A stretch of DNA of 46,167 nt from Bacillota bacterium (GTDB taxonomy: Bacteria; Bacillota_I; Bacilli_A; Erysipelotrichales; Erysipelotrichaceae): contig JAJZTY010000003.1 in NCBI GenBank assembly GCA_021847325.1, positions 1 through 46,167 of the forward strand, in the 5' to 3' direction. Position 1 is the first letter of the stretch; each line of letters opens with the position of its first letter. Below are positions 24,573-31,160 of the stretch, piece by piece. The notes under the pieces are model-generated. The model made no database searches, was not told where the DNA came from, and saw only the letters and a list, made by a program, of their open reading frames with translations. Made by a program: the position numbers and the translations under genes.

Positions 24573-25988
24573 ATGTACGACATTATCATTATCGGTTCTG
24601 GCATCATTGGATCTATGTTGGCTTATGATTTAAGCCGTTTTAATGTGTCCGTTTGTGTGCTTGAAAAGAATGTAGAAATTATGAATGAAGTCAGTAGTTC
24701 AAACAGTGGACTTGTTCATGCTGGGTATGATCCTGAAGATGGAACACTAAAAGCTCAATTGAATTTAATAGGGGCTAAACGTTATCCACAAATAGCGAAA
24801 GATTTAAATGTGGATTATAAACAAGTGGGTAGTTTACTCGTTTCAAACAGTATGGATGAACATGAAGCGCTTTTAAAATATGCACAACGTGCGACTCAAC
24901 GTAAGATTGATGTTAAATATATCCAACAAGATGAAATAAGAAGAATGGAACCTAATATAAGTGATTCTGTGTTAGAAGCCCTTTTCTTTCCTACGACTGC
25001 GATTATTACACCATGGCAAATGGGATTTGCGTGTATGAATTATGCGGTTTTAAATGGGGTTAAACTTTTTAGACAGACTAAAGTTATTGGGATAGATAAA
25101 AATGAAAATTATACAGTTCATACAACTCAAGGTGTATTTGAGTCAAAGTGTGTCATAAACTGTACGGGCTTAAATGGAGTTGATGTAGCGAAGTATCAGG
25201 ATCCAAACTCTGAACATCAACTTGAGTTTAGAAAAGGTGAGTATCAAGTGAGTGATATAAGAGATGAATCTTATTTAAATCATGTCATTTATCCGATGCC
25301 GAGTAAGTTGGGTAAAGGGGTATTAGCTCTTAAAACCATCGAAGGTAATTTGATGTTTGGCCCAACGAGTTATGTGATTGATAATCGATATGACTTTAGC
25401 ACAACGGTTAATGGTTTGAATGAAGTTGATTCTAAGATTAGTCAGATCATTAAACCTTTAGCAAAGAATCGGATGATACGTCAATTTGCAGGGGTGAGAC
25501 CTGGATCTATTACGAAGGATTTTATCATTGAGAATAAGGATGGATTTATCAATGTGATTGGCATTGATTCTCCTGGTTTAGCAAGTGCACCTGGAATATC
25601 AGAGTATGTAATAGAATCATTCCTTAAGAAGGATTTTGAGCTTGAAAGTAAGATGAATCTAGTGGACTTCAAATGGAAAAAACATTTAAGTTCTAATGAG
25701 AGAAATGAGTTAATTAAAGATGACTCTCGGTATGGAAGAATCGTATGTGTATGTGAAACGATTAGTGAAAAAGAGATCATGAATGCGATTCATTTGCCTG
25801 TAGGGGCAAGAAGTATTAAAGGGGTTAAACGTATTACTCGACCTGGTTCTGGACGTTGTCAGGGTGGCTTTTGTGAGAGTGAAGTAGTGCGTATTTTAGC
25901 TCGTGAGTTAAATGTAGATATGAAGGATATACCTTATGATAATGATGTGTTCTTAACACCTCTTGGAGGTCATGATGAGACACGTTAA
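24573..25988 (+). CDS. GlpA-like FAD-dependent oxidoreductase with BFD-like [2Fe-2S] domain
   Basis: The 471-aa protein has the N-terminal FAD-binding motif IIGSGIIGSMLAYDL (6-20), a DAO-type body with SSNSGLVHAGYDPEDG, and a C-terminal Fer2_BFD-like domain with C392-x-C394 and C429-x4-C434. It matches the large subunit of the anaerobic glycerol-3-phosphate dehydrogenase type found in Firmicutes in a fixed triad with an FAD/NAD oxidoreductase and a DUF1667 protein, both of which follow. Oxidation of glycerol-3-phosphate (or another 2-hydroxy acid) is inferred from the family. No glycerol kinase is nearby. Confidence 0.85.
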   Translation: MYDIIIIGSGIIGSMLAYDLSRFNVSVCVLEKNVEIMNEVSSSNSGLVHAGYDPEDGTLKAQLNLIGAKRYPQIAKDLNVDYKQVGSLLVSNSMDEHEALLKYAQRATQRKIDVKYIQQDEIRRMEPNISDSVLEALFFPTTAIITPWQMGFACMNYAVLNGVKLFRQTKVIGIDKNENYTVHTTQGVFESKCVINCTGLNGVDVAKYQDPNSEHQLEFRKGEYQVSDIRDESYLNHVIYPMPSKLGKGVLALKTIEGNLMFGPTSYVIDNRYDFSTTVNGLNEVDSKISQIIKPLAKNRMIRQFAGVRPGSITKDFIIENKDGFINVIGIDSPGLASAPGISEYVIESFLKKDFELESKMNLVDFKWKKHLSSNERNELIKDDSRYGRIVCVCETISEKEIMNAIHLPVGARSIKGVKRITRPGSGRCQGGFCESEVVRILARELNVDMKDIPYDNDVFLTPLGGHDETR

Positions 25989-27210
25989 ATGTGTAGTAAT
26001 TGGAGGTGGTAGTGCTGGTTTAGCTGCCGCAATTCAATTAAAGAAATACAATATTGATTGTCTTCTTTTAGAGAAGGAAGATGTTTTAGGGGGTATCTTA
26101 AATCAGTGTATTCATAATGGATTTGGATTAACACGATTTAAAGAAGAGTTAACGGGTCCTAGTTATGCGGAGAGATTAGTTTCTGAGTTTCATGATTTAG
26201 GGATTGAGTTTGAACTTGATTCTACTGTAATTAAATTGAATTCTGATAAATCGATTGAATATATTAATCCTAAAGGTGTACACAAAATTCAGGCGGAATC
26301 GATTGTTTTAGCGCTTGGAGCACGTGAAAGAACACGTGGGAATATCATGATTCCTGGAGATCGAAGTGTCGGAGTTTGGACGGCTGGTTCTGCTCAGAAG
26401 TATTTAAATATCGATGGTTATTGTGTAGGTAAGCGTGTATTTATTTTAGGCAGTGGTGATATTGGATTAATTATGGCAAGACGAATGACGATAGCGAAGG
26501 CTAAAGTTGTAGGTGTTGCGGAGATTATGCCGTATTCAAATGGATTAACACGTAACTTAGTTCAATGTTTATATGACTATGATATTCCACTTTATCTAAG
26601 TACCACGATTACTCGTATAAATGGGAATGGTCGTGTTCAATCGATTGAGTTGAGTCGAGTGGATGAGAATTTAAAGCCAATTAGTGGAACTGAGTTTAAC
26701 ATCGAAGTAGATACTGTATTATTATCGGTTGGATTAATTCCAGATAATATTATTACTGAGAATGCAGGTATTGAGATGGATCCAAGAACGAAAGGTCCTA
26801 AGATTAATCAATACTATGAAACATCCATTCCAGGTATATTTGCATGTGGAAATGGTCTACATATACATGATGTGGTGGATTTTGTGAGTGAAGAAGGGGA
26901 TATGGTTGCGAAATCGGTTGAGAGATATTTGAATCAACTCGGAAAATCAGATTTATCGATTCCTGTTAATAGTGATTCTAATTTCATTTATGTTTTACCT
27001 CAAACAATTGATAAGAGTCAGGCTGTTAAATTGAAGTTTCGAGTCAAAAGACCACTTAAGAATGTGAAGCTTGTGATTAGAACGAAAGATGAAATAATTA
27101 TGACTTTACCAAAGACACAATTACTACCTGCGGAGTTAGAGATGATTACACTTCCTTTACCTCTTATTGATAAAATACAAGATGAAGTACGATTGGAGAT
27201 TATCGCATGA
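25975..27210 (+). CDS. FAD/NAD-dependent oxidoreductase (GlpB-position partner)
   Basis: The 411-aa protein has two dinucleotide folds: FAD-binding VIGGGSAGLAAAIQL near the N-terminus and an NAD-binding VFILGSGDIGLIMARR in the middle, plus the FACGNGLHIHDVVD segment that closes the FAD site. The LNQCIHNGFGL block is typical of the triad partner of GlpA-like oxidases. The ATG at 25975 follows GGAGGT and overlaps the upstream gene by 14 bp; other starts at 25963/25972 crowd the ribosome site. It probably passes electrons from the oxidase to NAD(P) or an acceptor (inference). Confidence 0.88.
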   Translation: MRHVKCVVIGGGSAGLAAAIQLKKYNIDCLLLEKEDVLGGILNQCIHNGFGLTRFKEELTGPSYAERLVSEFHDLGIEFELDSTVIKLNSDKSIEYINPKGVHKIQAESIVLALGARERTRGNIMIPGDRSVGVWTAGSAQKYLNIDGYCVGKRVFILGSGDIGLIMARRMTIAKAKVVGVAEIMPYSNGLTRNLVQCLYDYDIPLYLSTTITRINGNGRVQSIELSRVDENLKPISGTEFNIEVDTVLLSVGLIPDNIITENAGIEMDPRTKGPKINQYYETSIPGIFACGNGLHIHDVVDFVSEEGDMVAKSVERYLNQLGKSDLSIPVNSDSNFIYVLPQTIDKSQAVKLKFRVKRPLKNVKLVIRTKDEIIMTLPKTQLLPAELEMITLPLPLIDKIQDEVRLEIIA

Positions 27211-27569
27211 AACATGAACTAACATGTATCGTATGTCCAAGAGGGTGTCTTATTCAATTAGTAAAAGATGAAGAACATTATATTTGTACAGGGAATCAAT
27301 GTAAAAGAGGAGAGGTTTATGCCATACAAGAAGTGACTGAACCTCGTCGTATGTTTACGACAACTGTACAGATTGTTGGGTCTAAGCTAAGTCGTTGTCC
27401 GGTTGTAAGTTCTAGTGCTATACGAAAAGAAGATATTTTTAAAATTCGAGATATCTTAGATGGATTAGTAATACATGCTCCTATACAAGTGAATGACATT
27501 ATTGTGGAGAATATTCTTGGGACTGGAATTCATATTATTGCGTCTAGAAGTATAAAAAAAGATGCCTAA
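27207..27569 (+). CDS. DUF1667 protein of the GlpA-like triad
   Basis: The 120-aa protein is cysteine-rich at its start: LTCIVCPRGC gives C7, C10 and C14, and GNQCKRG gives a fourth cysteine at about residue 32. This is the DUF1667 signature and probably binds an iron-sulfur cluster or another metal. It overlaps the oxidoreductase by 4 bp and completes the triad. Its 3' end contains the terminator stem of the convergent HD gene. Confidence 0.88.
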   Translation: MKHELTCIVCPRGCLIQLVKDEEHYICTGNQCKRGEVYAIQEVTEPRRMFTTTVQIVGSKLSRCPVVSSSAIRKEDIFKIRDILDGLVIHAPIQVNDIIVENILGTGIHIIASRSIKKDA

Positions 27570-28759: not shown

Positions 28760-29230
28760 ATGGCAATAGAGAAAGTTAGAGATTATTTTAGACCATTTGG
28801 AGTTGAATCTCGTATACAAGAATTTGATGTATCGAGTGCGACAGTAGAAATGGCTGCTCAAGCATTAAATATAGAAGGTAAACGAATTGCGAAGACTTTA
28901 GCATTTCGTTATTTTGATCAAACACTCTTGATTGTGACTGCGGGAGATGCCAAAATAGATAATAGTAAGTTTAAGTCACATTTTAATTTAAAAGCTAGAA
29001 TGCTTGATGCACAGGAGACTGAAGAAAAAGTCGGTCATGCGGTAGGTGGAGTGTGTCCATTTGCGGTCAATCACAATTGTGTAGTAGTATTAGATGTATC
29101 ACTTAAACGATTTGAAACCGTTTATCCTGCGTGTGGTAGTTCGCAATCCGCAATTGAGTTGAATCTAGCTGAGCTAGAAAAATTATCTCAATCAACACAA
29201 TGGGTAGATGTATGTAAGGAATGGGTCTAA
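28760..29230 (+). CDS. YbaK/EbsC-type aminoacyl-tRNA deacylase
   Basis: The 156-aa protein matches the YbaK/ProX editing-domain fold: IEGKRIAKTLAFRY with the catalytic-type lysine, LIVTAGDAKID, and VGHAVGGVCPFAV, the GxxxGGVxP motif characteristic of the family. Freestanding members hydrolyse mischarged aminoacyl-tRNAs (for example Cys-tRNA-Pro). Length is typical. The exact specificity is not readable. It ends directly against the Fnr-type regulator gene. Confidence 0.9.
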   Translation: MAIEKVRDYFRPFGVESRIQEFDVSSATVEMAAQALNIEGKRIAKTLAFRYFDQTLLIVTAGDAKIDNSKFKSHFNLKARMLDAQETEEKVGHAVGGVCPFAVNHNCVVVLDVSLKRFETVYPACGSSQSAIELNLAELEKLSQSTQWVDVCKEWV

Positions 29231-29908
29231 ATGGAAAGTTGTCAAACGTGTAAAGCACCAATTTGTATCAGTCATATTAGTCTTTTTCGCAATCTTACTC
29301 CAATTCAAAGAGGTAAAATCATACGCCATGTTAATCGTAAGGCATTTAAACGGGGTGATATCTTTTTGAATCAAGGGGATATGATTTCGGAGTTTGTGAT
29401 TGTCAGTCGAGGCCAGTTTAAAGCGGTTAGTATAAATCCTGAAGGAAAATCAAAAGTGGTTCAATATTTTAGAACAGGTGATTTCTTTGGGCAGGATAGT
29501 TTGTTTAAAGAAAAAGAATTACCATATACAATTCAAGCTATGTCTGAAGGGGCTTTGTGTATGATAGATGCGAGTACGATGCATGAACTTATTCATAGTG
29601 AGCCTGATTTAGCGCTATCGATCTTAAATGAACTGAATAATCGTGTGAATCAATTGGAGAGTGAATTATCTACTGTTTATGTAGAGAGTTTGGAAGTTCG
29701 ATTGATGAATCTATTAAAACAACTAAGCAATGATTATGGGGTTCAATTGAAACATGGAGTAAAGATAAATAATCCATTAAGTCAAGATGAAATGGCTATG
29801 CGTTTAGGTGTAAGTCGAGAAAGTGTTAATCGTAAGTTAAAACAGTTAGAAAAAGAAGAAAGAATTAAACTTCAATCAAGAAGAGAAATAATTATCTATA
29901 AAATGTGA
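29231..29908 (+). CDS. Fnr-type [4Fe-4S] transcriptional regulator (Crp/Fnr family)
   Basis: The 225-aa protein has an N-terminal cysteine cluster (C4, C7, C12), a cyclic-nucleotide-binding-like barrel (about 18-130) carrying a fourth cysteine C110, a long dimerisation helix, and a C-terminal helix-turn-helix (about 168-205) with recognition helix SRESVNRKLKQL. Four such cysteines fit an oxygen-labile iron-sulfur sensor. The R-E-S-V-N-R pattern resembles that of CRP, which reads TGTGA half-sites, and exactly such a palindrome overlaps the end of this gene. A role as anaerobic activator is well supported by inference. Confidence 0.87.
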   Translation: MESCQTCKAPICISHISLFRNLTPIQRGKIIRHVNRKAFKRGDIFLNQGDMISEFVIVSRGQFKAVSINPEGKSKVVQYFRTGDFFGQDSLFKEKELPYTIQAMSEGALCMIDASTMHELIHSEPDLALSILNELNNRVNQLESELSTVYVESLEVRLMNLLKQLSNDYGVQLKHGVKINNPLSQDEMAMRLGVSRESVNRKLKQLEKEERIKLQSRREIIIYKM

Positions 29909-29924
29909 TGTATATCACATTTTA
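29899..29924 (+). promoter_or_regulatory. Fnr/Crp-type binding site
   Basis: The palindrome TAAAATGTGAT-N4-ATCACATTTTA contains a perfect TGTGA-N6-TCACA core (29904-29919). A TATTAT -10 element at 29940-29945 puts the site centre near -41, the class II activator position, for the DUF438 gene. The site overlaps the stop codon of the regulator gene. Confidence 0.8.
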
Positions 29925-29963
29925 TTTTTGTATTTATGATATTATGTGGTTGGAGGTCAATAT

Positions 29964-31136
29964 ATGAGTGAAATTATTGATAACGTTAGTAAGCGACAGG
30001 AACAACTAAAAACATTAATCCAAAGATTACATCGTGGAGAAGATAGAGCGGCAGTAGAGGCAGAATTTAAACGTGATTTTGCGTATGTCACAGGTGCGGA
30101 AATTGCACAAATGGAATATAACTTGGTTCAAGATGGAGTAAGTGTAGAAGAAATCCAAAGTTTATGTGATGTGCATGCGTCCTTATTTCAAGGATCACTT
30201 GCGGAGCTTCATAAGGATGTTTTAACAATTAATCCTATTACAATTTTTGAAGAAGAGAATTTAGAGTTTAGCGCATTAGTTGATAAAGCGATTAAATTTA
30301 AACAAGAAACGAATAATCATTTAAATGTGGTTAAACCATTTCTATTAGATCTTATAGAAAAATTTAGAGCTGTAGATGCGCATTATTCAAAAAAAGAAAA
30401 TGTATTCTTTCCATTCTTAGAGAAGCATGGGATTGAGACGATTCCACAAGTTATGTGGGGAGTTGATAACCAGATTCGTGAGAAGTTAAAGGATTCCTTT
30501 ATAACGCTTAATACGAGTGATGATGTGAATCTGATAATGGATAAATTCTATCAGATGGTTGATATGGTTAAAGAAATGATTACGAAAGAGAATATGATTC
30601 TATTCCCTTTATTACGTGATACTTTAACTGAGAATGATTTTAAAGCAATCGCACAAGCACTTGAAAACCCAGAAGCTGGAGTTTACCAATCTAAAGAAGA
30701 AACACAAACAGTTGATGAAATTGAGTCTGTGAATGGTGATATTCGTATGTCTATGGGTCATTTATCTACTACAGAAGTGAATGCATTATTAAATACATTA
30801 CCTTTTGATATGACGTTTGTGGATGCGAATGATAAAGTAAAATATGTTTCTCAAGGGAAAGAAAGAATCTTTGATCGACCAGCTTCTGTTATAGGACGTC
30901 CTGTACATTTATGTCATCCACCTCAAAGTGTTCATATTGTGATGAATATTGTGGAAGACTTGAGGTCGGGTAAAAAAGATCATGAAGATTTCTGGATTAA
31001 TTTTAGAGGAAAGTTTGTCTATATTCGATATTATGCAGTTCGTGGTGATTCTGGTGAATATTTGGGTTGTTTAGAAGTAACTCAAGAGATTAGTGGAATT
31101 CGTAGTTTAGAGGGTGAAAAACGTTTAGCATCATAA
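29964..31136 (+). CDS. DUF438-hemerythrin-PAS protein
   Basis: The 390-aa protein combines an N-terminal DUF438 domain (about 5-75), a hemerythrin-like helical domain (about 90-245) with the histidine/glutamate motif HYSKKENVFFPFLEKHG, and a C-terminal PAS domain (about 270-375, ITF-type VDANDKVKYVS and SVIGRPVHLCHP). Hemerythrin di-iron sites bind oxygen or NO, and PAS domains sense small ligands. The start at 29964 follows GGAGG. Regulation by the adjacent Fnr-type factor is likely from the operator. Exact function is unknown; related DUF438 proteins are often near iron-sulfur and redox genes. Confidence 0.88.
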   Translation: MSEIIDNVSKRQEQLKTLIQRLHRGEDRAAVEAEFKRDFAYVTGAEIAQMEYNLVQDGVSVEEIQSLCDVHASLFQGSLAELHKDVLTINPITIFEEENLEFSALVDKAIKFKQETNNHLNVVKPFLLDLIEKFRAVDAHYSKKENVFFPFLEKHGIETIPQVMWGVDNQIREKLKDSFITLNTSDDVNLIMDKFYQMVDMVKEMITKENMILFPLLRDTLTENDFKAIAQALENPEAGVYQSKEETQTVDEIESVNGDIRMSMGHLSTTEVNALLNTLPFDMTFVDANDKVKYVSQGKERIFDRPASVIGRPVHLCHPPQSVHIVMNIVEDLRSGKKDHEDFWINFRGKFVYIRYYAVRGDSGEYLGCLEVTQEISGIRSLEGEKRLAS

Positions 31137-31160
31137 AATACCTGGAAACAGGTATTTTCT
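31135..31160 (+). terminator. Terminator after the DUF438 gene
   Basis: The stem AAAATACCTG-GAAA-CAGGTATTTT begins in the stop codon. Confidence 0.85.

Follow-up and report, generated by a model that had tools for sequence, protein, structure and literature searches.

An Fnr-type regulator gene and the gene directly behind it, which encodes a DUF438 protein with hemerythrin-like (HHE) and PAS domains, are linked by a palindromic operator with class II promoter spacing, and both the operator and its spacing are conserved in relatives that keep the pair. We consider it likely that the regulator carries an O2- or NO-labile Fe-S cluster, reads TGTGA-N6-TCACA, activates the DUF438 gene as a class II activator and has pfl, feoAB and further anaerobic genes among its other targets. 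The pair lies in the window, i.e., the whole stretch of 46,167 nucleotides that was analysed, from an Erysipelotrichaceae-type host genome (assembly 1.80 Mb, 81% complete). The features of the locus are as follows.

28760..29230, forward strand: aminoacyl-tRNA editing (YbaK-like) gene, abutting the regulator gene upstream
29231..29908, forward strand: Fnr-type regulator gene, 225 aa, with cNMP_binding fold, HTH_Crp_2, C4/C7/C12/C110 and the recognition segment SRESVNR
29900..29923, no strand: extended palindrome AAAATGTGAT-GTAT-ATCACATTTT, putative operator and possible AU-rich intrinsic terminator of the regulator transcript
29904..29919, no strand: operator core TGTGA-N6-TCACA, TGTGATGTATATCACA, with its centre between 29911 and 29912
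29906..29908, forward strand: stop codon TGA of the regulator gene, within the operator core
29940..29945, forward strand: -10-like hexamer TATTAT at centre+28 (centre+29 in most relatives)
29950..29956, forward strand: Shine-Dalgarno-like TTGGAGG, a sequence reading
29952..29953, forward strand: predicted transcription start, from the register of the -10 hexamer
29964..31136, forward strand: gene for the DUF438, hemerythrin-like (HHE) and PAS_10 protein, 390 aa, by Pfam domains
31135..31158, forward strand: terminator-like hairpin 3' of the DUF438 gene, from a terminator scan

The arms of the extended operator are perfect over 10 bp each, and the stop codon of the regulator lies inside the core, as the initial annotation had noted. 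The TGTGA-N6-TCACA core occurs once in the 46 kb, where 0.09 occurrences are expected, and the 24-bp extended palindrome found no match in 100 shuffles; chance was considered as its origin and rejected. Only three perfect cores exist in the whole 1.8-Mb genome. From the centre of the palindrome to the ATG at 29964 the distance is 52 bp, and the predicted start puts the centre at -40.5 to -41.5, so that the earlier estimate of about 41 bp before the inferred start is right to about 1 bp. A longer DUF438 gene beginning at GTG 29946 is unlikely, and the ATG with its TTGGAGG is preferred. The overlap of the box with the stop codon of the regulator would leave the DUF438 gene with a promoter of its own right behind the sensor gene.

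The conservation of the operator was followed in regulator and DUF438 homologs taken from 116 family genomes plus named contigs, with the DUF438 alignment used for the contig scan. In all ten genomes that have DUF438 immediately after a CxxC-type regulator (the window, L095, L096, L097, L098, L099, L100, L101, L102 and L061), the palindrome matches TGTGAY-N4-RTCACA at 11–12 of 12 positions and stands 52–76 bp before the DUF438 ATG. This is the check in relatives keeping both genes that the initial annotation had proposed. Examples of the palindromes from relatives are AAAATGTGATTTGCATCACATTTT, AGAATGTGATGTACATCACATTCT and GAAGTGTGACGGAAGTCACATTTT, and the identity of the regulators to that of the window is as low as 25%. 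Where such a regulator does not adjoin, most DUF438 loci reach only 7–9/12 (exceptions are L117, L151 and L157). The best match is 8/12 in L062, whose upstream neighbour is CRP-like and lacks the cysteine motif. Where a DUF1858 gene stands in between, one half of the box has degenerated (10/12), but the -10 is perfect. The genome G073, of the same genus, retains the regulator and has no DUF438 match although it is 98% complete; 3' of the regulator gene it has a hairpin of the ordinary kind and no palindrome.

Three Izemoplasma-type loci (L139, L162 and L174) also carry the box and the promoter register before DUF438. Their regulators combine a CxxC near the N-terminus, where the L162 protein is truncated, with CxxCAVTR in the middle, an arrangement that possibly represents a different cluster layout. 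With regard to autoregulation, boxes precede the regulator gene in L095, L096, L099 and L100. In the window no box is found before the regulator gene, and the YbaK-like gene stands upstream there; that gene is missing from the equivalent place in the nearest relative, L005. The host genome also has a second DUF438-type gene (contig C84, 30% identity), directly after a peptidase-like gene and with no evident box. Elsewhere in the window (24573–27569), an FAD-dependent oxidoreductase with a BFD-like domain, a pyridine-nucleotide oxidoreductase and a DUF1667 protein are clustered, in a set that resembles anaerobic glycerol-3-phosphate dehydrogenase.

The strongest single result of the analysis is the promoter register. 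When 17 loci are aligned on the operator centre, every one has a -10-like hexamer at centre+29 or centre+28, matching TATAAT at 4–6 of 6 positions: TACACT, TATACT, TATAAT, TAAAAT and TATCAT occur in relatives, and the window has TATTAT at +28. The mean match is 4.65/6 at offset 29 compared with 1.98 over all offsets, and none of 5000 shuffles reaches 4.65/6 at any offset, whether near-duplicates are included or removed. The loci were partly selected for having the box, but the position of the -10 played no part in the selection. For an operator at -41.5, centre+29 corresponds to positions -12 to -7. The arrangement is thus that of a class II CRP/Fnr-dependent promoter, with the operator near -41.5 and a conserved -10 at centre+29, from which the window deviates by a single base relative to most relatives. 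The fixed spacing between box and -10 is that of a class II activator site, and the proposal of the initial annotation that a class II operator links the two genes is supported by the conservation of the palindrome and of the register. The predicted leader is short, 11–19 nt in most aligned loci and 11–12 nt in the window, where it still contains GGAGG.

The regulator matches cNMP_binding (PF00027, 61.5 bits) and HTH_Crp_2 (PF13545, 47.5 bits), both above cut-off. Its AlphaFold model (pLDDT 84) has the fold of CRP, GlxR and NtcA, with GlxR and CRP as the best matches. Confidence is low near residues 1–5, at the end of the model that holds the cysteine loop, and the model is therefore no test of a cluster. 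C4, C7, C12 and C110 are invariant in 12/12 relatives and paralogs, in agreement with the Fnr-like cysteines first noticed in the single sequence. Both the fold and the four cysteines, three N-terminal and one central, agree with the Fe-S (Fnr-type) CRP/Fnr regulators, whose O2-labile [4Fe-4S] cluster is predicted for the protein. In an alignment with E. coli FNR (K-12 record), C4, C7 and C110 fall on C20, C23 and C122, while the third cysteine has CX2CX4C spacing and is shifted relative to the following helix, so the geometry of the cluster may differ.

E. coli FNR shares with the regulator the CRP/Fnr fold, the cysteine pattern and an operator near -41.5, but it has CX2CX5C, V-E-x-x-S-R and TTGAT where the window regulator has CX2CX4C, R-E-x-x-x-R and TGTGA. 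FNR sensu stricto is defined by a V/P-E-x-x-S-R helix and a TTGAT-N4-ATCAA box; the SRESVNR helix, the TGTGA box and a score of 44.7 against the 228-bit cut-off of NCBIfam PRK11161 set the regulator outside this TTGAT-reading group. E. coli CRP and GlxR resemble it in the TGTGA-N6-TCACA box with A/T flanks and give the best fold matches; they differ in that the window regulator has four conserved cysteines and no sign of cAMP control. Bacillus Fnr is likewise a [4Fe-4S] regulator of anaerobic genes in Firmicutes, the cluster being predicted for the window protein, but its cluster cysteines are C-terminal, with an Asp ligand in B. subtilis (PMC3520743), whereas those of the window regulator are N-terminal plus central.

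The SRESVNR recognition helix carries the combination R-E-R. A published rule assigns R180 and E181 to G3 and A6 of the site, respectively (PMC1274295), and in HcpR1 a helix with R, E and R is associated with TGTGA-N6-TCACA (PMC5701242). Together with the conserved palindrome, this supports the suggestion that RESVNR gives a CRP-like readout of TGTGA. The sole other CRP/Fnr protein found in the host genome is a second four-cysteine Fnr paralog (contig C38; L049; L179 2872–3570) with 27% identity to the regulator and the helix PETISR, from which a preference for TTGAY boxes is expected. The gene of this paralog lies near an aldo-keto reductase gene and a peptidase-like gene.

The target protein belongs to the DUF438 (PF04282, 81.9 bits), HHE (46.5 bits) and PAS_10 (95.1 bits) families, with cut-offs of 25, 25.3 and 22.1. 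The initial annotation took its hemerythrin domain to bind O2 or NO. The di-iron ligands of YtfE are H84, H129, E133, H160, H204 and E208 (PMC9268430), and 79 DUF438 homologs were aligned with YtfE and three RIC proteins. In 79/79 of them, E133 is replaced by K144 and H204 by M205; changes of H160 to D168 and of H84 to N99 are probable, the alignment being less certain there, and only the equivalents of H129 and E208 are kept. The family thus lacks the ligand set of the di-iron hemerythrin/RIC proteins, and a canonical di-iron site appears not to be expected in the HHE domain. With the ligands replaced there is no basis for an O2- or NO-binding hemerythrin label, and that part of the initial annotation is not supported. 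The RIC/YtfE/ScdA proteins are similar in their HHE-type four-helix bundle, and they are DUF438 neighbours in some Clostridia. Conservation is instead seen elsewhere: H71 in 78/79 and the CHPP motif of the PAS domain in 79/79 homologs, while C68-D-x-H71 is kept in the six closest ones.

The closest solved structures are PF0695 (3CAX), with a hemerythrin-like bundle and a PAS domain with the CHPP motif, and the PAS domain of SMU_1151c (2QKP). PF0695 keeps HxxxE and HD, both of which the window protein lacks. A literature search found no function or regulation described for PF0695 or SMU_1151c, only passing mentions of DUF438, and no publication on the regulator-DUF438 pair. In other lineages genes for RIC/ScdA are found close to the DUF438 gene at 5 loci and genes for Hcp at 3, directly upstream at two of these, a setting that hints at the upkeep of Fe-S clusters or at nitrosative stress. 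The role of the protein is guessed from these neighbours to lie, probably, in Fe-S or redox/nitrosative homeostasis. It can also be speculated, though we find this doubtful, that DUF438-HHE-PAS proteins are pseudo-hemerythrin sensors or adaptors for Fe-S upkeep in anaerobes, which have lost the di-iron site and kept the fold, C68-D-x-H71 and C317-H-P-P, and that Fnr-type regulators are tied to them by the conserved operator, with the hairpin separating both transcripts.

The wider regulon was sampled by pattern searches of the host genome. The extended box with at most 3 mismatches occurs 112 times, compared with 61 for the reversed-pattern control, and a further box count gives 66 against 39. 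Given this modest enrichment, many of the weaker sites are chance, and only the better, conserved sites count. One such site stands before pyruvate formate-lyase (pfl), present in 10/10 genomes examined at 11–12/12, with a -10 TAAAAT at the equivalent register in two; G073, without DUF438, retains it. Other boxes in the host genome precede mntR-like/feoA/feoB and an FMN_bind lipoprotein gene, and one is at a formate/nitrite transporter/cytochrome-b5-like region. The FMN_bind box recurs in G100, and so does the box of an iron-type solute-binding protein (SBP), whose centre is only about 24 bp before the ATG in two genomes (L047 1501–1518, L090 1501–1516); at this distance repression is probable. 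Taken with the box upstream of feoAB, this suggests that ferric and ferrous uptake are regulated in opposite directions. The DUF438 promoter is thus one of an anaerobic regulon and not part of a closed two-gene switch; the operator link of the original reading is supported, but the reading is too narrow.

The remaining two perfect cores in the host genome (L002 1501–1516 and L003 1501–1516; contigs C58 and C105) lie before gap and pgk, both with the sequence TTGTGAA-N4-CTCACAT. They initially seemed plausible members of the regulon but fit Rex better, and a Rex-type gene is present in the host genome (contig C109). A DUF454 (YbaN-like) gene in G100 has its own TGTGA box (L083 1501–1516), and in G080 another DUF454 gene lies directly 3' of the DUF438 gene (L008 3184–3459); DUF454 is possibly a further member. 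The pfl promoter is common to contigs C8 (L037 68–85) and C64 (L041 1501–1518) with one base difference beside it, which suggests a strain mixture or an assembly repeat.

Could the palindrome serve mainly as the intrinsic terminator of the regulator gene, with an A-tract, a 10–12 bp stem and a U-tract, its likeness to a CRP/Fnr box being incidental? As RNA it would form a 12-bp stem (-10.8 kcal/mol, z -4.8) with a U-rich tract behind it, near relatives are alike, and the arms reach AAAA/TTTT, with both sides changed to AGAA/TTCT in L099 and L100. However, in L139 and L174 both the core and the -10 register are retained with hairpins that lack the arms and reach only -4.8 to -5.6 kcal/mol, and the core also stands in promoters that are not behind a gene end, namely those of pfl and of the regulators of L095, L099 and L100. 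The core contains only 2 G-C pairs, which is under the threshold of the terminator scan, and the hairpin of G073 is a different one. As termination accounts for neither the core nor the -10 register, we regard it as an improbable main function; an added role as AU-rich terminator or insulator in close relatives is possible. Still less probable, to the point of being very unlikely, is that the box is a site for Rex, a repressor that responds to NAD(H) and has the operator TTGTGAA-N4-TTCACAA. Rex boxes share TGTGA/TCACA (PMC2883068) and the cores before gap and pgk resemble them, but the inner bases of Rex sites are A..T, whereas TGTGA is followed by T or C (Y..R) at nearly all pfl boxes and at all DUF438 boxes that adjoin the regulator. 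The fixed class II spacing to the -10 also suits an activator, and the box stands behind the gene of a cysteine-type regulator and not behind rex.

The regulator itself could respond to NO or a metabolite, in the manner of HcpR or CooA, and activate through the box without an O2-labile Fe-S cluster. Desulfovibrio HcpR1 and the HcpR group share the R, E, R helix, the box, which HcpR1 reads in identical form (PMC5701242), and a redox/nitrosative setting. The nitrosative-stress genes beside DUF438 in other lineages and the different cysteine layout of the Izemoplasma counterparts also speak for this reading. Nevertheless, the FNR cysteine motif is absent from HcpR, DNR and NnrR (PMC1274295) and invariant in the window-type regulators, which are thereby distinct from HcpR. 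HcpR acts chiefly on hcp/frdX, Hcp is not found in the 81%-complete host genome, and genes like pfl and feoAB typically come under anaerobic and not NO-specific control. We therefore give this alternative little probability.

We suggest instead that the regulator is an anaerobic activator, and for its cluster, DNA binding, activation and signal we infer the following course. C4, C7, C12 and C110 most likely hold an Fe-S cluster that is labile to O2 and NO, and its R-E-x-x-x-R helix would read TGTGA-N6-TCACA boxes. Under anaerobic conditions, with the cluster intact, the dimer would bind at 29904–29919, with the centre near -41 relative to the DUF438 start, and activate this promoter as a class II activator in contact with RNA polymerase at the -35 region. 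Destruction of the cluster by O2 or NO would end the activation. The same regulator would also act at pfl, feoAB and other anaerobic genes.

The regulator-DUF438 pair appears to be a sound but fairly ordinary anaerobic switch, and its novelty is modest. A literature search found no such anaerobic regulon for Erysipelotrichaceae, and the analysis offers a testable one for this family, with box, spacing and targets. It also connects the DUF438-HHE-PAS family, as yet uncharacterised, with Fnr-type control and, in other lineages, with RIC and Hcp. The name hemerythrin, as applied to these proteins, does not warrant an assumption of O2 or NO binding.
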